A stretch of DNA of 41,383 nucleotides from a virus, in the IMG/VR virus record IMGVR_UViG_3300001533_002311, positions 1 to 41,383 of that record, one strand, 5' to 3'. A model generated the notes under the pieces. The model saw nothing but the letters and a program-made list of their open reading frames with translations. It was not told where the DNA came from and made no database searches. Position 1 is the stretch's first letter. Every line of letters begins with the position of its first letter. The translations under genes were made by a program, and so were the position numbers. Positions 2,743 through 17,911 of the stretch are shown here, in pieces.

Positions 2743-3165
2743 ATGGTTAGAATATTTAAGGTTGATATTGAACAAGATAGACGAAAAACTATCGGGGTTT
2801 CGTTGTATTATATTTTGTCAACTTGTGTTGATGGTGAGACAAATATGCTCAAAATAAATGGCAGACCAATGAACACAATGGATATATGTGCATATGCTAA
2901 TTATACAAGAAAGGAATTGTCAAAGGCAATCAGAACATTGTACTATAAAGGGATTATATTGAACGTCAGAACTGGTGGCAAAGATTTGTTCTTTATAAAT
3001 CCAGAATTTGTTAGAGACGAAAATAAGACCGTATTGGATTTCCCGTTTTTGAATGAACTATTTGACGGTGAGAGTAATATGGATGTAAAAGACCTTGTGT
3101 ATTTTAGGAAAGGTCATCGCAAAATAAGCATAGATATAGGTAGTGTTCTACCAGAGGTAAAATAA
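2743..3165 (+). CDS. RepL-like winged-helix DNA-binding protein
   Basis: This 140-aa protein carries a winged helix-turn-helix in the middle: residues near 45-65 (MDICAYANYTRKELSKAI) form the helix pair, followed by a GIILNVRTGG wing and the phrase FFINPEFV. The helix plus 'NPE' pattern is like the RepL family of Firmicutes plasmid replication proteins and like phage wHTH regulators. It has an AAAGGA ribosome site about 12 nt before the ATG. It overlaps the next gene by one base (TAATG), so it is the first gene of the deazaguanine operon. It may initiate replication at the upstream AT-rich region or control the operon; the sequence does not decide between these. Confidence 0.6.
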   Translation: MVRIFKVDIEQDRRKTIGVSLYYILSTCVDGETNMLKINGRPMNTMDICAYANYTRKELSKAIRTLYYKGIILNVRTGGKDLFFINPEFVRDENKTVLDFPFLNELFDGESNMDVKDLVYFRKGHRKISIDIGSVLPEVK

Positions 3166-3518
3166 TGTATACGATAAGCAAACGATTCCAATTCTCAGCA
3201 TCACATTTGTTAAATAATTTAGAAGAAGGACATCCTTGTTCGAGAAATCACGGGCATAATTACGAATTGACGATATACCTTGCCAGTAAGGAACTTGACA
3301 AACAGGGGTTTGTTCTTGATTATCAGAAACTTGATTTTGTAAAACAATATGTAAATAAGTTTCTTGACCATCGCTGTCTTAACGATGTCTTTGATTTCAA
3401 CCCGACAGTTGAGAATATGACAAAGAAGATATATGACTTATTTAAGCCAAAATGTCCACAGTTATTGGCAGTTGCGTTAAGTGAAACACCTAATACGGAG
3501 TGCATATATGAACCTTAA
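3165..3518 (+). CDS. queD: 6-carboxy-5,6,7,8-tetrahydropterin synthase (QueD)
   Basis: This 117-aa protein converts 7,8-dihydroneopterin triphosphate to 6-carboxytetrahydropterin, the second step towards preQ0. The zinc ligands are His14 (SASH), His29 and His31 (NHGHNY), and the catalytic Cys25 and the LDHR motif at 67-70 are in place. The C-terminus ends with the family-typical SETPN and E-IYE. The length matches bacterial QueD (about 120 aa). Its ATG overlaps the stop of the preceding gene and its end overlaps the queE start by 11 bp, so translation is probably coupled. Confidence 0.93.
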   Translation: MYTISKRFQFSASHLLNNLEEGHPCSRNHGHNYELTIYLASKELDKQGFVLDYQKLDFVKQYVNKFLDHRCLNDVFDFNPTVENMTKKIYDLFKPKCPQLLAVALSETPNTECIYEP

Positions 3519-4089
3519 TATAGTAGAAATATTTTCGTCTATTCAGGGCGAAGGATTACATACTGGTCAGCTTGTAACATTTGTTAGACTTGCCGGGTGC
3601 AATATGAACTGTCCGTTTTGTGACACAGATTGGCAAAGCAATCAAAAACAAATGAGTCTTAGTGCAGTTTTGAGGGAGGTTAGGAAATATCCGTCAAATG
3701 TTATTGTTTGGACTGGTGGAGAGCCATTGCTCCAGTTAAAGGAAGAATGTTTATTTTTCGGGTATAAACACTATTTAGAAACAAACGGCTCATTGCCGCC
3801 GATTAAGGGATTAGATTATATTACAATAAGTCCAAAAGTACCCACAGATATGTTAAACAAAAACTTTCGGGGGTTTTGGAATATAGGAGAAATAAGGTAT
3901 CCGATAAAAGTAGGCGATGTTGTTCCGAATATAGATGAACTACCTATTGCACGGAATTACTATTTAAGTCCAATTTTTGACGGAGATAAGTTGATAATAC
4001 AGAATGTAAAATATTGTATGGAACTAATAGAAAGGAGACCAAGGTGGAGACTGTCAGTACAAACACACAAGCTATTGAATCTTACCTAA
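3508..4089 (+). CDS. queE: 7-carboxy-7-deazaguanine synthase (QueE), radical SAM enzyme
   Basis: This 193-aa enzyme makes 7-carboxy-7-deazaguanine from 6-carboxytetrahydropterin by a radical S-adenosylmethionine ring contraction. The [4Fe-4S] ligands are Cys31, Cys35 and Cys38 in [12 protein letters not shown]. The SIQGEG start motif is at 11-16 and the SAM-binding GGEP at 70-73. I chose the ATG at 3508, which starts directly at the conserved N-terminus; an in-frame GTG 27 bp upstream lies deep inside queD. The end overlaps folE by 46 bp. Confidence 0.93.
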
Positions 4090-4613
4090 AAGACATATTG
4101 GGTTATATAGGTGATGACCCAGATAGAGAGGGTTTAGTTGAAACGCCGCACAGGATTGTAAAATCTTGGGAAAAGTTATTTGGTGGGTATGAACAAAATC
4201 CTTACGATGTAATTAAAACATTTGAAGACGGTGCTTGCAATGAAATGGTGATATTGAAAGACATAGAGTTTTACTCTACGTGTGAGCATCATTTCTTGCC
4301 ATTTTTTGGCAAAGTACACATTGCGTATATCCCGAATGGGAAAGTAGTCGGTGTTTCAAAACTTGCAAGATTAGTTGAGGTATATGCAAGACGATTACAA
4401 ATACAGGAAAGACTTGTAGGACAAATAGCAGATTGCATTTCTGAGGTTCTTAATCCAGATGGTGTCATGGTTGTTTGTCAGGCACAGCATTTTTGTATGA
4501 TAAGCAGGGGAGTTGAAAAACAAAACTCTATTATGGTAACAAGTGCAGTGCGTGGCGTTTTCAAGGATATTGCAAAGACAAGAGAAGAATTTATGTCTCT
4601 TATATCCATGTGA
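4044..4613 (+). CDS. folE: GTP cyclohydrolase I (FolE)
   Basis: This 189-aa enzyme converts GTP to 7,8-dihydroneopterin triphosphate and so feeds QueD. The zinc ligands Cys80, His83 and Cys151 are at the family spacing (CEHH; later QHFCM). The substrate-binding [17 protein letters not shown] stretch at 103-119 is intact. The start is a GTG at 4044, placed 7 nt after the ribosome site AAAGGAG; the upstream TTG at 4014 has no such site. Phage-borne FolE raises the flux into the pathway above the host level. The stop overlaps the next start (ATGTGAG). Confidence 0.93.
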
Positions 4614-4927
4614 GTTGTATCGTGAAATTTGTTATTGATATAGATGGAGTTATAGCAGAAGAGAGAAGTAATCATCTTGAATATAGTAAGTGTGTACCTA
4701 AAAAGGATGTAATTGATTGTGTAAATAAACTATTCAATTCTGGCAATTATATCATCTTGTTTACATCGAGATTTGAGGTTGATAAACAAGTAACAATGAC
4801 ATGGCTTGAAAAAAACAACGTATTATACAATGAACTAATTCTTGGAAAACCAAGGGCAGATTTTTATATAGATGATAGAGCAATGCGTCCAAATGAATTT
4901 AAGGAATTGTGTGAGCAAAATGTATAA
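4610..4927 (+). CDS. HAD-superfamily phosphatase-like protein
   Basis: This 105-aa protein has the HAD motif I DIDGV near residues 10-14 (nucleophile Asp and the second Asp), motif II Ser/Thr-like FTSR near 48-51, and a C-terminal [12 protein letters not shown] that fits motifs III and IV (Lys and the Asp pair). The length fits small capless HAD hydrolases. The start is GTG at 4610, overlapping the folE stop; GTG at 4622 is an alternative that gives the usual 'xKFVIDIDG' N-terminus. It sits inside the deazaguanine operon with overlaps on both sides, so it may act on a pathway intermediate or nucleotide, but its substrate is unknown. Confidence 0.7.
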
Positions 4928-5579
4928 ATCTGTTTTGTTAATGTCTGGCGGTATAGATAGTTTTATAGGCTACTATCTGCTCGGTTATCCGCAACCTGTT
5001 TATTTTAACCTAAATTCCAAGTATTCTAAGGTTGAAATTAATACGGTGCATAAAATATCTGATAAAGTGATTATAGATAATGACTTGAATTTTCTTGGGA
5101 GACTTGAAGATAAAGATGCTCATATTCCATATAGAAACTTGTTTTTTATGTTGCTCGGTGTTACCAAATATTCTGATACTGTGATAATATGTGGGGTTAG
5201 AGATGACAATGTGTCTGATAAAGACAGTAAGATTTTTAGGAAGATGTCTGACTCTTTATCATATGTAGCAAAAAGAAAAATTGAGATAGTTTCTCCGTTT
5301 TGGAATTTTACAAAGGCAGACATTTGTGCCAAGTTTGCAAACAAATTTGACAAAAGACTCTTATTGCAAACATACTCTTGTTATTCTGGCAAAGAGATTG
5401 AATGTGGAGCTTGTCCTGCTTGTTTTAGAAAAAGAGTTGCTCTTTTTAGCATAAATATTTTTATGCCATTCAATAATGACTTGTTGCTTTCTAAATATGA
5501 AGCCAATATGAGTAACTATGACGACCAAAGACAACTTAATATGAAAAAATATATCAAGTATATAAGGGACAGTAAATGA
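4920..5579 (+). CDS. queC: 7-cyano-7-deazaguanine (preQ0) synthase (QueC)
   Basis: This 219-aa ATP-dependent enzyme turns 7-carboxy-7-deazaguanine into the nitrile preQ0. The PP-loop SGGIDS is at residues 9-14. Four zinc-binding cysteines (154, 162, 165, 168) lie in the C-terminal CGACPACFRKR segment, as in QueC. It overlaps the HAD gene by 8 bp and the DpdA-like gene by 4 bp (ATGA). No amidotransferase domain is fused to it and no QueF is seen nearby, so the end product is expected to be preQ0 rather than an amidated or reduced form. Confidence 0.92.
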   Translation: MYKSVLLMSGGIDSFIGYYLLGYPQPVYFNLNSKYSKVEINTVHKISDKVIIDNDLNFLGRLEDKDAHIPYRNLFFMLLGVTKYSDTVIICGVRDDNVSDKDSKIFRKMSDSLSYVAKRKIEIVSPFWNFTKADICAKFANKFDKRLLLQTYSCYSGKEIECGACPACFRKRVALFSINIFMPFNNDLLLSKYEANMSNYDDQRQLNMKKYIKYIRDSK

Positions 5580-6313
5580 GATTGTATTTTGCTGGAGATG
5601 ATGGATATAAAGCAACAAATGAGATATTGTTAAGATATGGCGCAAAGAACCGTCTTGAGAGCTTTTTTTATTTGAGGAAGGGAAACCCAAGTATGCAGTT
5701 TGAAAACTATCTTTTAGATAGCGGGGGATTTACAGCCAGAAAAAGTGGTGTAGAAATAGATATTAGAAATTACATAGATTTTATAAATAAAAACTCAATC
5801 AAGCAGGCATTCAATCTGGATACAAATGACTTAAATGAAAGTCGAAAAAATCAAAGAATCTTAATGCAAAATACAGATGCGGAGATTGTTCCAATTTATC
5901 ACGCGACAGAGCGGGAACACGAAAAAACAAGAGATATGTTAATGCAATATATAGAGGAGTATAACTATATCGGCATATCTGGTCCGAAGAGAAAGAGCGT
6001 TAGGAAGGAATATAAGCTTGCATACTTTGATTTTGTTTTTTCTCATTTTGATTTATCCGTAAGGTTTCACGGACTTGGAATAACTACTCCTGATTTTCTA
6101 AGAAGGTATTCTTGGTATTCTGTGGATTCTACAACTTGGATTTCAATAGGGAAATATGGAAGAGCTTCAAATCTAAAGATAAAACAAATGCAAAAGTACC
6201 TTGCGAAAGGGAGAAGAAGAAATCACAATATAGAGAGGGATTTGCCTTATTGGATTGGGTTAGAAAAAACAATGACAAAATACTGGAAAAATCGCGATAT
6301 AGATTATTCATAA
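5576..6313 (+). CDS. dpdA: DpdA-like DNA 7-deazaguanine transglycosylase
   Basis: This 245-aa protein belongs to the tRNA-guanine transglycosylase superfamily. It has LLDSGGFTA (Asp48), the same motif as the proton-acceptor region of TGT enzymes, FNLDTND near 79-85, and VDSTTW with Asp184, the likely nucleophile region. It is shorter than cellular TGT and lacks the zinc-binding tail, like the short phage DpdA group that exchanges guanine in DNA for preQ0 or its derivatives. It follows queC with a 4-bp overlap, which ties it to the synthesis genes. Known function of the family: base exchange in DNA; that this one uses preQ0 is inference from its neighbours. Confidence 0.82.
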   Translation: MRLYFAGDDGYKATNEILLRYGAKNRLESFFYLRKGNPSMQFENYLLDSGGFTARKSGVEIDIRNYIDFINKNSIKQAFNLDTNDLNESRKNQRILMQNTDAEIVPIYHATEREHEKTRDMLMQYIEEYNYIGISGPKRKSVRKEYKLAYFDFVFSHFDLSVRFHGLGITTPDFLRRYSWYSVDSTTWISIGKYGRASNLKIKQMQKYLAKGRRRNHNIERDLPYWIGLEKTMTKYWKNRDIDYS

Positions 6314-11705: not shown

Positions 11706-11721
11706 ATAGGAGAAATTGAAG

Positions 11722-13218
11722 ATGCCTGATAAAATCACCATCAATGCCAAAGACATTCTTGAGATGGTAAACATTCTCAAGTCAACTGTCGAAAATGGCG
11801 GGTCGCCAGAGAACAAAAACGAAAAAGCTTTAAGTCCTATGGCGGCTTATCTGCTTGCAAAAGCGGATTATCCGATACAGGATGTAGATGGCAAAATGTT
11901 GGCAAAGTCCGAGATTGACGAGGTTACTCTTGACTTTACGCGTGGTCGCACCCTTACAGAAGAGGAAAGCGAAATTGCCATCAATTACATCTATAACACC
12001 AACCCGTATTTATCAATGTTCAATACACGCATTGTCAAAAAGCTGGTCACGCCAGTTGAAGGCAAGGCAATTACCCGCAAAAACCTGATTTCCAACGAGC
12101 AGAAGGGCGGTGAGGTTTCTGTTATCAATCGCAGGATTGTTCACAACTTCGGCGTTAATCTCTATTTGAGACACACCCAGTTGCAAAAGGACATTCCGCT
12201 TCAGACCGTGATTGACAATCTGCACAATCCGGGCTGGGAAACTCAGGTTATCAATGATGTTGCAACTGCTCTCGGCAATGACATCCTGTTGCTTGCCCTG
12301 AATGGGCTTGGCGGGAATTACGCCAGCACTGAAGATTTTTATGACCTTAACAAAGGTTTCAATAAAATCTTGCAGGAAGCTGACGGAATACACACCAATA
12401 CCTATGGCGAAATCACCGTTGTCGGTTTCTTGGGAATTTACCTGACGCCGCAAAAGGTGGATGCCTCTGGAGCAATTGGCACAGACTACACAGGCACAAA
12501 CTTGCTTGCGTTGATGCGTAAAATCTACAAGGCTATGCCCAAGAAATATCGTGACAACCCAAACAACGTGTTTATGATGTCTCAGGCTGATATTGACCTT
12601 TATCTTGACACACGTTCGGATATGACCAACCCAAGCAATACCACGCGCGAAGCAATCCTCAATACTGGAATCGTGCCTTCCTTTATGGGATTCCGTCTTG
12701 TCGCAATGCCCGGCTGGTTGTCAATCAATGAAACTCACGAGTCTGACGACACTTTGTATGGTTCGATTGTTTTTGGTGACCTCAAGAGTCTTGACGTTGC
12801 CTCTGACAAAGTGAACTATATGCGGACTTCTTCGTTCAATGCTCGTGCTGACCTCGGTCCTGCCTTTGAGTATAACTATGATATGTATCTGGACTTCCAG
12901 CCTGCCATCCCTGAAAGCTTTGTAATTGCTTTCAATGGAGCAAAGGTTTCTGACCCTGTCCTGCTGTCTGCTGACAACTCAAAGAATGGTATGGTCGGGT
13001 TTACTCCTTCGGGAACTAATACCTATGCCGAATCTGGTAGCGCCGATACTCCGTGGCACGTGTGTGTTGATAATCGGGGCGCAGTTATCGTGAAATCACC
13101 AAATTCACTTACTGCCGCCACCACGCTTGCTGATGCGTTAGAAGTCGCAGATGCAGTGGTGCAACTGATGATATTTATATCCGCGCCTACCATCCTTATA
13201 TGGACGCTTCGGATATGA
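11722..13218 (+). CDS. Major capsid protein; C-terminus probably frameshifted
   Basis: This 498-aa protein resembles P2-type HK97-fold capsid proteins: INRRIVHNFGVNLYLRHTQL, then a long NALGNDILLLALNGLGG-like region and PGWLSINETHESDD. The ATG at 11722 has AGGAGA 9 nt before it; TTG at 11716 is too close to that site. The last 17 residues (LMIFISAPTIL and on) look hydrophobic and foreign. In the -1 frame the same DNA encodes TDDIYIRAYHPYMDASDMIT and ends at 13244, close to the next gene's ribosome site. This suggests a one-base indel in the read, a recent mutation, or a programmed frameshift near 13159-13164. Confidence 0.87.
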   Translation: MPDKITINAKDILEMVNILKSTVENGGSPENKNEKALSPMAAYLLAKADYPIQDVDGKMLAKSEIDEVTLDFTRGRTLTEEESEIAINYIYNTNPYLSMFNTRIVKKLVTPVEGKAITRKNLISNEQKGGEVSVINRRIVHNFGVNLYLRHTQLQKDIPLQTVIDNLHNPGWETQVINDVATALGNDILLLALNGLGGNYASTEDFYDLNKGFNKILQEADGIHTNTYGEITVVGFLGIYLTPQKVDASGAIGTDYTGTNLLALMRKIYKAMPKKYRDNPNNVFMMSQADIDLYLDTRSDMTNPSNTTREAILNTGIVPSFMGFRLVAMPGWLSINETHESDDTLYGSIVFGDLKSLDVASDKVNYMRTSSFNARADLGPAFEYNYDMYLDFQPAIPESFVIAFNGAKVSDPVLLSADNSKNGMVGFTPSGTNTYAESGSADTPWHVCVDNRGAVIVKSPNSLTAATTLADALEVADAVVQLMIFISAPTILIWTLRI

Positions 13219-14471: not shown

Positions 14472-14486
14472 TAGGAGAAACATAAA

Positions 14487-15029
14487 ATGGCTTTAGAATA
14501 TGGAACTACTGGAATCAAGCAGAAAGACTGGGATGTCTATGTTGCCCAAAATGGTGACAGTCATGCGTCCGCAATGACAACTTATAAAAGTATTCAAGAT
14601 AAAACGAATCTTGATGCTCTTATGACGGCTATGTCTGGCGTGACAAATGGCGGACGTCTCGGTGAATGTCGTGCTGATTCTATTGACCTCGGGCTGGACA
14701 AAGGTGATACGGTTGACGGAAATAATCTCGGTGAGATTGTTCTCAACAAAGCCTGCACCTTTGCCGCCGAACTCATCAACGCTACTCCTGCAAACATTGC
14801 CGCACTTGAAGATATTGACGGACTTGCTTGTGATGTCCTTCTGGTTGAAGTCGATACTCATGATGTAAGCGGAAGTCCCTACAAGACGGTAGTCCTGCTT
14901 GAGAATCTCGTTGTGAACTATGCTGAAAAAATCACTGGTGGTGATTCTATCCGCTCAACTGTGTCCATCTCAAGGAATGTTGGTTCGCCTTCATCCTTCC
15001 GCATTATTGACGATATAGATTACACCTAA
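14487..15029 (+). CDS. Major tail tube protein (copy 1)
   Basis: This 180-aa protein has the features of a phage tail tube subunit: a beta-rich fold and the conserved core RADSIDLGLDKGDTVDG followed by NLGEIVLNKACTFAAELINA. It has a strong AGGAG ribosome site. The next gene encodes a longer paralogue with the same core. It is the shorter of the two and so the more likely main tube protein. Confidence 0.75.
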   Translation: MALEYGTTGIKQKDWDVYVAQNGDSHASAMTTYKSIQDKTNLDALMTAMSGVTNGGRLGECRADSIDLGLDKGDTVDGNNLGEIVLNKACTFAAELINATPANIAALEDIDGLACDVLLVEVDTHDVSGSPYKTVVLLENLVVNYAEKITGGDSIRSTVSISRNVGSPSSFRIIDDIDYT

Positions 15030-15042
15030 TTTGGAGGTAAAA

Positions 15043-15972
15043 ATGTGTCCTCCACTTAACTATGGAACTGAAAACGTAAAGCGGAAAGGCTACAAAGTTT
15101 GGCTTGCGAGCATAAACGATTCAACATGGTCTGATGCCCTGTCTGCCGTTAGTGCCTTGCTTGCAGGTGCTTCAACTGCCAGATTTACGCCAGAACTTGA
15201 ATCATTGCTGTCTGACGCGCTTGCCTACTTTCAACACGTGGGCGAGATGCGTGCTGACTCAATAGATATTGGTCTTGAGAAAGGCGACACGGTTGATGGT
15301 AACAACTTGGGAGAGATTGTTCTTTCAAAGGCTTGCACATTCTCGGCTGAGTTGATAAACGCCACTCCTGACAATATCAATGAACTGGCTAATCTTGGCG
15401 ACAAGGAAGCACTTGTTATCCTGCAGGAAGTTGACGAGTTCCGCAGAAGCTGGTCAATGGATGCACCGGAAGGAGAAGAAGGTGCTTACGATGCGGCAAC
15501 AACCCACACAAAGTCCATTATTGTAATTGGAAACGGAAACAACGGGTTCAATCTGTCCGTATCTGAGAAAGTGACTGGTGGCAACATTACAACTGCCACT
15601 CTCACATTCTCAAAATCTGTAAGTTCAATGAGCAATTTCAGACAGATATTTGACGTTGAGATGAATGCAGACCTGATAAGTTATTTTAACGCTTTCTTTG
15701 ACACCATTGATGATGCCTGGATTAGCGACTTAGCAGCTTATAGGACTGCATATAATGTAGAATATCCAACTGATTATACTGATAAGGAAATGTTCTATTA
15801 CATAATGTATAGATACAAAGAAGAGGGTGGATATGATGATGCCTACTTTGATGGACTGCTTGCAACTGATATTAAAAGTGGCGAATCTATCTTTACATTG
15901 GATACCGCGGAAGGATTACTTGTTCCTGACCTTTTGCTATCACTTTCGGCTACAATTGACGGAAGTGTATAA
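15043..15972 (+). CDS. Tail tube paralogue with C-terminal extension (copy 2)
   Basis: This 309-aa protein repeats the core of the preceding tube protein almost word for word (RADSIDIGLEKGDTVDG, NLGEIVLSKACTF, AELINATPDN) and shares the KVTGG/KITGG and SMSNFR/SPSSFR segments. It adds an insertion near 130-160 and a roughly 100-residue acidic, Tyr-rich C-terminal domain (VEYPTDYTDKEMFYYIMYRY and on). The start is the ATG at 15043, just after GGAGG; TTG at 15031 lies on the ribosome site itself. It may form a tube variant with surface domains. A strong terminator follows directly. Confidence 0.72.
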   Translation: MCPPLNYGTENVKRKGYKVWLASINDSTWSDALSAVSALLAGASTARFTPELESLLSDALAYFQHVGEMRADSIDIGLEKGDTVDGNNLGEIVLSKACTFSAELINATPDNINELANLGDKEALVILQEVDEFRRSWSMDAPEGEEGAYDAATTHTKSIIVIGNGNNGFNLSVSEKVTGGNITTATLTFSKSVSSMSNFRQIFDVEMNADLISYFNAFFDTIDDAWISDLAAYRTAYNVEYPTDYTDKEMFYYIMYRYKEEGGYDDAYFDGLLATDIKSGESIFTLDTAEGLLVPDLLLSLSATIDGSV

Positions 15973-15985
15973 TAAACCTAAAACC

Positions 15986-16017
15986 GGGGCAGGCAGAAAT
16001 GTCTGCCCCTTTTTTTT
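15986..16017 (+). terminator. Rho-independent terminator after the tube genes
   Basis: A 10-bp stem (GGGGCAGGCA with TGTCTGCCCC, one G-U pair) closes a GAAA tetraloop at 15996-15999, followed by eight T residues at 16010-16017. It is a textbook intrinsic terminator. It would lower transcription between the abundant structural proteins and the tape measure group. Confidence 0.95.
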
Positions 16018-16672: not shown

Positions 16673-17911
16673 ATGGCTACAAGGTTGTATGAATCATCTT
16701 TTGACATCAGCTCATTTATTAATGAAATTCTTGAATACGCCCAATTAGCGGGTAAAAATTCTGAAGATATAAGGCATGATTTATATTATAAGTTGCCTAC
16801 GGAGATAGGCAGAGACAAAGAACTAAAAAGGATGTTAAATGCTGAGATTCTTAAGAGATTGAAGTATTCAACTGGTAGCCTTATAAATTCATTGGCTATT
16901 AATGCAAGTGTTGATTTAGATAGCAAATCAAGAACAGTAAAACCAGTAATAGACAAAGGGAAACGTCATTGGGTTGCTCAATATAATACCAGTATGAAAA
17001 TTGCTGTTGATTTAACAACTAAAGACAAAACCTTAATTAATGCTTTATTGTCTGAGCCAGAATTATCTGGGAAAGTGCCAAGTATTGCTAAACTAACCGA
17101 ATGGATAAGGGGAAAAGATAGATATTTTGAAGAATCAATAGAAGACATACATGAAAGAAGAGTTTTAAAGGCTTTAAGGTTACAGCGAAATAAGTTAGAG
17201 AGACAAACATCTACTGGTGGAATTGTAAAAACCGCCACAAGAATGGTACAAGAGGATAAAACCCCGCCAATTGAAGTTATAGCGAAAACAATAAGAAGTC
17301 GGATGCGGGGAAGAGTAAAGGCAGGACTTCCGCCTACAAAAGGTAGTGAGTACATATTCTTAGGGTTATATGAATCTGGGTTAACCAAAAAAAGGGGGCA
17401 CCCACAAGAATTTCTTATGCCTAAATACAGGGTGGAATCAAGACCTTTATATACCATAAATCCAAATATTACGCCAGAAGGAATTTTAAACCAGATAATC
17501 AGACGAGTATTATCTGCCTATATAAAAAAAGTGTTAAAACTTGTCGCGAAAAAGTTCAAAGAAGGTGGCGGCATTGCCAGCGATTACAAATCAATATCTT
17601 ATAAGATTGGTCTTATGAGGGCACTCGGTTGGTCAGACGAAGGAATAAAAAAGGCAAATTACTTGATTGATTCGCTTAGGGGAAATTTAAGTACTCCAAA
17701 GAGGCAAAAATATCATGACGAAGTATCAATGTACTTAAATAATCTGGAATCAAAACAAGTTAGAATTATAATGGATTATGCTCGCAGTGATTCACTTGCG
17801 TTAAAAAGAACCATAATAAGTGCAGTAAAACACCTAAATTCTATGAAAGTTTACTACATTAAAAGACGGCGTGCAAAACGACGCAAAAGAAAAGCAAGAA
17901 GAATAAGTTAA
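16673..17911 (+). CDS. Unknown basic protein before the tape measure
   Basis: This 412-aa, Lys/Arg-rich protein is not recognised. It starts 4 bp after the previous gene and ends just before the tape measure gene. It is mostly helical and finishes with a very basic tail (KRRRAKRRKRKARR). The middle contains a hydrophobic-charged stretch, GGGIASDYKSISYKIGLMRA. The slot usually holds the second chaperone product, but the size and charge do not fit that. Binding to the acidic tape measure coil or to DNA is possible; this is only inference. Confidence 0.7.
   Translation: MATRLYESSFDISSFINEILEYAQLAGKNSEDIRHDLYYKLPTEIGRDKELKRMLNAEILKRLKYSTGSLINSLAINASVDLDSKSRTVKPVIDKGKRHWVAQYNTSMKIAVDLTTKDKTLINALLSEPELSGKVPSIAKLTEWIRGKDRYFEESIEDIHERRVLKALRLQRNKLERQTSTGGIVKTATRMVQEDKTPPIEVIAKTIRSRMRGRVKAGLPPTKGSEYIFLGLYESGLTKKRGHPQEFLMPKYRVESRPLYTINPNITPEGILNQIIRRVLSAYIKKVLKLVAKKFKEGGGIASDYKSISYKIGLMRALGWSDEGIKKANYLIDSLRGNLSTPKRQKYHDEVSMYLNNLESKQVRIIMDYARSDSLALKRTIISAVKHLNSMKVYYIKRRRAKRRKRKARRIS

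Follow-up and report, generated by a model that had tools for sequence, protein, structure and literature searches.

Tandem genes for predicted tail-tube paralogues, the second with a variable C-terminal extension, in a virus with the gene order of long-tailed phages

The window analysed here, a stretch of 41,383 nt from an IMG/VR virus record, carries two adjacent genes, A and B, within the succession TerL, portal, protease, major capsid protein (MCP), A, B and tape measure, which is that of long-tailed phages (Table 1). The stop codon of A and the ATG of B are separated by 13 nt, and each gene is preceded by its own ribosome-binding-site-like sequence. The likely start of B is the ATG at 15043 rather than the listed TTG at 15031, since the latter overlaps the GGAGG ribosome-binding site; production of B by frameshifting from A, in the manner of phage SPP1, is ruled out by its own ATG and GGAGG. 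Upstream, the window also harbours a 7-deazaguanine-type cassette (3165-6313) with QueD/PTPS (E 3.8e-29), GTP cyclohydrolase I (E 9e-74), QueE-like, QueC-like and queuine tRNA-ribosyltransferase-like genes, which suggests that the phage DNA or tRNA may be modified.

Table 1. Features of the tail-tube gene pair and of the flanking structural genes, in window coordinates
Feature	Position	Strand	Basis
Major capsid protein gene	11716..13218	+	phrog_1623, E 1.5e-15
AGGAG, ribosome-binding-site-like, 5' of A	14473..14477	+	Sequence inspection
Gene A, predicted tail-tube paralogue without extension, 180 aa	14487..15029	+	AF2 pLDDT 75.1, pTM 0.72; tail-tube/Hcp structure matches
A residues 73-86, GDTVDGNNLGEIVL, predicted β2-β3 loop	14703..14744	+	A-B alignment, A model
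A motif AELINATP, end of predicted β3	14766..14789	+	A-B alignment, A model
GGAGG, ribosome-binding-site-like, 5' of B	15033..15037	+	Sequence inspection
Gene B, 309 aa, predicted tail-tube paralogue carrying an insertion and a C-terminal extension	15043..15972	+	AF2 pLDDT 68.7; core vs YSD1 major tail protein, Z 9.2
Helical β1-β2 insertion in B, approximately residues 24-66	15112..15240	+	B model; counterpart hypervariable in close relatives
B residues 81-94, identical motif GDTVDGNNLGEIVL	15283..15324	+	A-B alignment, B model
B motif AELINATP	15346..15369	+	A-B alignment, B model
Acidic, Tyr-rich C-terminal extension of B, residues 207-309 plus stop codon	15661..15972	+	A-B alignment, B model
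Terminator-like hairpin, 10 bp, loop of 4, followed by T8, 13 nt past the B stop	15986..16017	+	Hairpin scans
Tape measure protein gene, 2004 aa	17927..23941	+	PhageMin_Tail, E 5.4e-29; phrog_1533, E 1.7e-36

The products of A and B are identical at 77 of 204 positions (38%; BLASTP, 118 bits, E 2e-37), and their local alignment score of 307 compares with a maximum of 54 among 500 shuffles. Both contain the peptides GDTVDGNNLGEIVL and AELINATP, beneath which 32 of 42 and 18 of 24 nucleotides, respectively, are identical; the same peptides being encoded by differing DNA, the motifs appear to be maintained at the protein level. The earlier note on this DNA had placed neighbouring genes with these identical motifs at the correct coordinates, and its acidic, Tyr-rich domain of about 100 residues on the second gene is likewise borne out: B has about 103 extra C-terminal residues, and a 109-residue slice of its tail contains 22 Asp/Glu, five Lys/Arg and 11 Tyr. 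A further difference, absent from that note, is a β1-β2 insertion that is longer in B than in A in the alignments.

Searches of Pfam, PHROGs and PDB sequences gave no match naming A or B, nor did a phage-record collection searched with the two proteins give an identifying match. Among the 18 members of the family now known from eight loci, none matched a tail-tube family in Pfam or PHROGs at E<=1, the sole named PHROG being 'minor tail protein' in two members (best E 0.017). The identification was made instead from AlphaFold models, computed from alignments of 18 rows for A and 16 rows for B. The best 50 PDB matches listed for A all bear phage tail or tail-tube, Hcp/type VI secretion, contractile-tail, neck, baseplate or connector titles (Z 7.0-8.8); they include 80alpha, lambda gpV and SPP1 (Z 7.7-8.8), as well as two rows titled SPR, which we take to be a tail-tube protein. 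The core of B (residues 12-207) matches the YSD1 major tail protein and phage Chi best (Z 9.2), and the BFVD matches of B include, amid many unnamed proteins, some bearing the name major tail or tail tube protein. A Z-score near 8 could by itself reflect a common arrangement, and the Foldseek TM-scores of the structure matches are modest (about 0.2-0.55). Both predicted models nevertheless display the tube fold, a β-sandwich with a long β2-β3 loop and an α-helix, and the identification is solid though still predicted, because the structure matches form one functional class and the genes lie between the connector genes and the 2004-residue tape measure. That A and B are tail-tube proteins, as the earlier note had inferred from the sequence, is thus supported by predicted folds of middling confidence together with synteny. 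The length of such tails follows the tape measure at about 0.15 nm per residue, and by this rule the tail would be about 300 nm long.

Relatives were sought by a capsid-protein scan and by profile scans of 2.9 million viral contigs, which yielded seven contigs spanning the tube-array region; an eighth (L030) ends inside the capsid gene and is not countable for the array. Two scans of species genomes, one with an MCP query, found no relatives. An array of sister tube genes is present in all seven relatives that reach the region, and thus in eight of eight loci with the window, the gene order in all seven being TerL, portal, protease, MCP, small connector-type genes, tube array and two genes. 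The position between the capsid/connector genes and the tape measure is seen in its upstream part in all eight loci and as far as the tape measure in seven, L016 ending earlier. In L022 (2476-3930), a 484-aa gene is inserted between portal and protease, with no counterpart among the window proteins compared. Five of the seven relatives (L010-L013 and L004) carry a pair in which the second protein is longer at its C-terminus by about 95-105 residues, while the other two (L009 and L014) carry three copies without extension, of 180, 175 and 216 aa and of 170, 180 and 206 aa, respectively. These three tandem paralogues occupy positions 6001-7733 of L009 and 6001-7692 of L014, and the last two overlap by one base. 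Across the 18 copies in the eight loci, 18 alignment columns are invariant.

The recurrence of the array extends to its downstream boundary. Since a standard scan found 16 terminator-like sites in 17 kb against 11.1 expected, single sites mean little, whereas recurrence at one place does matter. In seven of the eight loci, our own scan rule ranks the post-array hairpin above every other hairpin-plus-T site between TerL and the tape measure, its T-run beginning 38-64 nt past the array; in L021 the post-array hairpin lacks a T-run. The codon use of A (0.713) and B (0.719) resembles that of the capsid gene more than does that of the tape measure gene (0.657). The hairpin, with codon use as a weak hint, suggests abundant synthesis of A and B, with lower expression of the genes downstream. 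Directly before the tape measure lies a conserved 412-aa gene (16673-17911) whose codon use resembles that of the capsid gene least and which has no family match better than E 0.01; it occupies the position of a tail assembly chaperone, yet is unusually long.

The C-terminal extension is a fast-changing part of B. Structure prediction of this domain, as proposed in the earlier note, gave a helical model but no confident fold (pLDDT about 55-60 up to residue 260 and <50 from residue 262). The extension of the window has no Pfam family match and no relative was found for it, the best weak match having E 0.02; homology with the extensions of the relatives was rejected, as hhalign gave no link. 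A profile of the relatives' extensions yielded one chance-level match only in the PDB. The extension of L004 resembles fn3 (E 0.00035, a match that falls below the curated cut-off), no fn3 was detected by Pfam in those of the other four relatives, and one whole member has a weak Big_6 match (E 0.039). The site of the extension on B is constant, and the domain itself differs between genomes.

The same turnover is visible at short distance, between close relatives in which the B core remains 95-98% identical in nucleotide sequence while the exterior segments change. Between L017 and L019, identity is 96.7-100% over parts of A, 98.1% in the B core and 97.5% in the next gene, but 62.9% in the β1-β2 insertion of B and 60.3% in its extension; in the other two pairs among L017, L019 and L020, the values for insertion and extension are 80.3 and 62.3%, and 58.0 and 71.7%. 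In all three pairs the extension has the lowest protein identity of 11 gene parts (54.0-56.9%). Synonymous divergence of the extension is above 2 in two pairs, whose remaining gene parts range from 0.02 to 1.05, and is an ordinary 0.41 in the third; the high values suggest an exchange of divergent alleles. The major capsid gene also contains a variable stretch (about 5500-6600 of L017 compared with L019), with 73-90% nucleotide identity in most blocks against 97-100% around it, which resembles an exposed or exchanged part of the capsid. In lambda, the Ig domain contacts the β1-β2 loop of the neighbouring subunit (passages of PMC8718954). A contact of this kind between the extension of B and a neighbouring A subunit is not favoured, since the B loop varies with the extension and the A loop does not; the covariation of the two B segments beside a static A loop weakly favours B-B neighbours, and hence whole B rings, over strict A-B alternation within a ring.

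The shared motif points to a different surface. In the A model, residues 73-87 form the loop that joins strand 57-72 to strand 88-96, the tube strands β2 and β3 (named here by their order in the model). The motif GDTVDGNNLGEIVL is thereby predicted to lie in the β2-β3 loop, the ring-stacking element of known tubes: according to passages of PMC8718954, this loop makes inter-ring contacts in T5 and lambda, and aspartate mutants in it block tube growth in lambda. The match between A and B was compared across six of the eight genomes, L012 and L013 being dropped as near copies of L010 and two middle copies being left out. A and B of the same genome are 40.4% identical, whereas pairings average 36.5%, and the true pairing ranks first of 720. 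The excess is found in A residues 59-92, with identities of 0.672 for own pairs, 0.581 within the same group and 0.505 with the other group (rank 2 of 720); identity in loop 73-87 by itself is 0.66, compared with 0.53 (rank 2 of 720), strand 57-72 also ranks second of 720, and residues 93-143 have no own-genome excess. Recent gene conversion was rejected as the cause of the shared motif, since the codon is the same at 77 of 187 identical residues of 59-92 in own pairs (summed over eight rows) and at 472 of 1079 in others. We take this to mean that A and B have to be compatible with common partner surfaces, the simplest case being that they contact each other.

The within-genome match could also stem from shared ancestry only, with separate duplications in each phage group still showing in slowly evolving segments and no functional pairing, an explanation that contests the pairing argument and not the tube identity. 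The free tree places the eight last copies on one side of a branch with weak support (68/17), while a tree constrained to group copies by genome group is not rejected and has a slightly higher likelihood (p-AU 0.534); the tree is compatible with one ancient duplication as well as with separate ones and does not settle the matter. Separate duplications alone would give some own-genome resemblance, and the pairing signal does sit in slow columns. Shared ancestry alone would, however, have to accommodate an own pair that still ranks second of 36 when residues 59-92 are paired within genome groups, and a conserved helix segment (0.50 identity) with zero own-genome excess, in addition to the weak grouping of last copies in the free tree. 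It is a serious minority explanation, somewhat doubtful on balance.

The conserved array, together with a fast-changing outer domain on the last copy in most loci, indicates that the tube is probably made of several subunit kinds and carries an exchangeable outer coat. The reading that we prefer, with a probability of roughly 0.7, is that the tube is co-built from the encoded paralogues A and B, B displaying a swappable exterior domain. The earlier suggestion of a tube of two subunits, or of one decorated variant, is thus still the best reading, and it is strengthened by the presence of the array in every locus, by a stacking loop matched within genomes and by hypervariability confined to exterior-type elements of B. 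Both siphophage-type subunits would be encoded on one transcript ending at the terminator just past B and would polymerize around the same tape measure, the common β2-β3 loop allowing A-type and B-type subunits or rings to stack on one another. The exterior elements of B would place exchangeable surface domains along the tail, exposed at intervals or in runs. Both proteins are expected in the virion, and in abundance; by analogy with SPP1 and lambda, the exposed extension may touch cell surfaces transiently, or protect, stabilize or stiffen the tube. A bolder form of this model, somewhat short of an even chance and held tentatively, is an obligate co-polymer of two (three in relatives) separately encoded, mutually adapted subunits in alternating or mixed rings (A3B3; A2C2B2), equivalent to the double-domain tubes of T5 and P74-26 but unfused, with B as a replaceable exterior coat.

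A different division of labour would have A alone form the tube, with B, and the middle copy where present, as a low-copy ring at the head- or tip-proximal end whose extension contacts the neck or baseplate. In known tails the Hcp/tube fold indeed recurs in rings of the neck and baseplate, and neck and baseplate entries occur among the structure matches of A, although many of those chains are tube rings. The three copies of diverged length in two relatives are also what would be expected if each had its own place, and by branch length the last copies evolve faster than the first. A few-copy ring would, on the other hand, need neither the position upstream of a strong terminator-like hairpin that B shares with A and the capsid genes, nor a GGAGG site and a codon use equal to that of A; moreover, a hypervariable extension fits display towards cells or the environment better than a fixed internal joint. 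A low-copy role for B is accordingly considered unlikely. Far less probable still is that B is a superfluous copy on its way to being lost. Its extension and length do vary, and SPP1 virions with gp17.1 alone are described as viable in passages of PMC8718954, but the 18 invariant columns retained in every copy imply that B is not a decaying one, the array is kept in all eight loci with a broken last copy in none of the seven relatives, and the core is conserved between close relatives beneath the changing exterior.

To our knowledge, the long tails described so far consist of a single stacked subunit, or of that subunit and a frameshifted variant of it. Decorated tubes and frameshift pairs (passages of PMC8718954) and fused double tube domains (passages of PMC10034513) are already known. 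In SPP1, gp17.1 and gp17.1* occur at 3:1, the latter with a frameshifted FN3 extension (passages of PMC8718954); as proposed here, one long tail would likewise contain two forms of tube subunit, one of them with a C-terminal extension, which in SPP1 is of the Ig/FN3 type. The SPP1 forms derive from one gene and have identical cores, whereas here the genes are separate, the cores are 38% identical and some relatives have three; gene duplication would thus achieve what SPP1 does by translational frameshift. Lambda gpV and T5 pb6 share the succession of a tube domain and an exterior C-terminal domain, and the stacking of rings through the β2-β3 loop (passages of PMC8718954), but a single gene decorates every subunit with an Ig-like domain, while the product of gene A is undecorated. 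The tube of P74-26 is built from a duplicated fold whose two copies have diverged to 16% identity (passages of PMC10034513) and are fused in one chain as a trimeric pseudohexamer instead of being encoded separately. The first-listed structural match of A, PDB 9vne (Z 8.8, tied with other rows), is by its title, our source for it, the Hcp2-Hcp3 heterohexamer of the Bacteroides fragilis T6SS, with two paralogous tube-fold proteins in one ring, although of a secretion-system tube and not of a virion. A conserved two- or three-gene tube array with a swappable extension on the last copy was not found in searches of the open-licence literature, including passages of PMC8718954, PMC11445458, PMC10504331, PMC10034513 and PMC3556154. 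In those searches no paper came up under exact wordings for a tail-tube protein that is second or paralogous, 'two tail tube proteins' occurred once in an unrelated sense, for tube proteins A and B in pelagiphage Skadi-1, and the passages on phiCbK contained no tube paralogue.

With two or three tube paralogues in a conserved array, it would become possible to study how several kinds of subunit are retained or put in order within a helical polymer. Such an array would also offer a natural route to varying the exterior of the tail without touching its channel, and natural variation of that sort is already present in the close relatives L017, L019 and L020.
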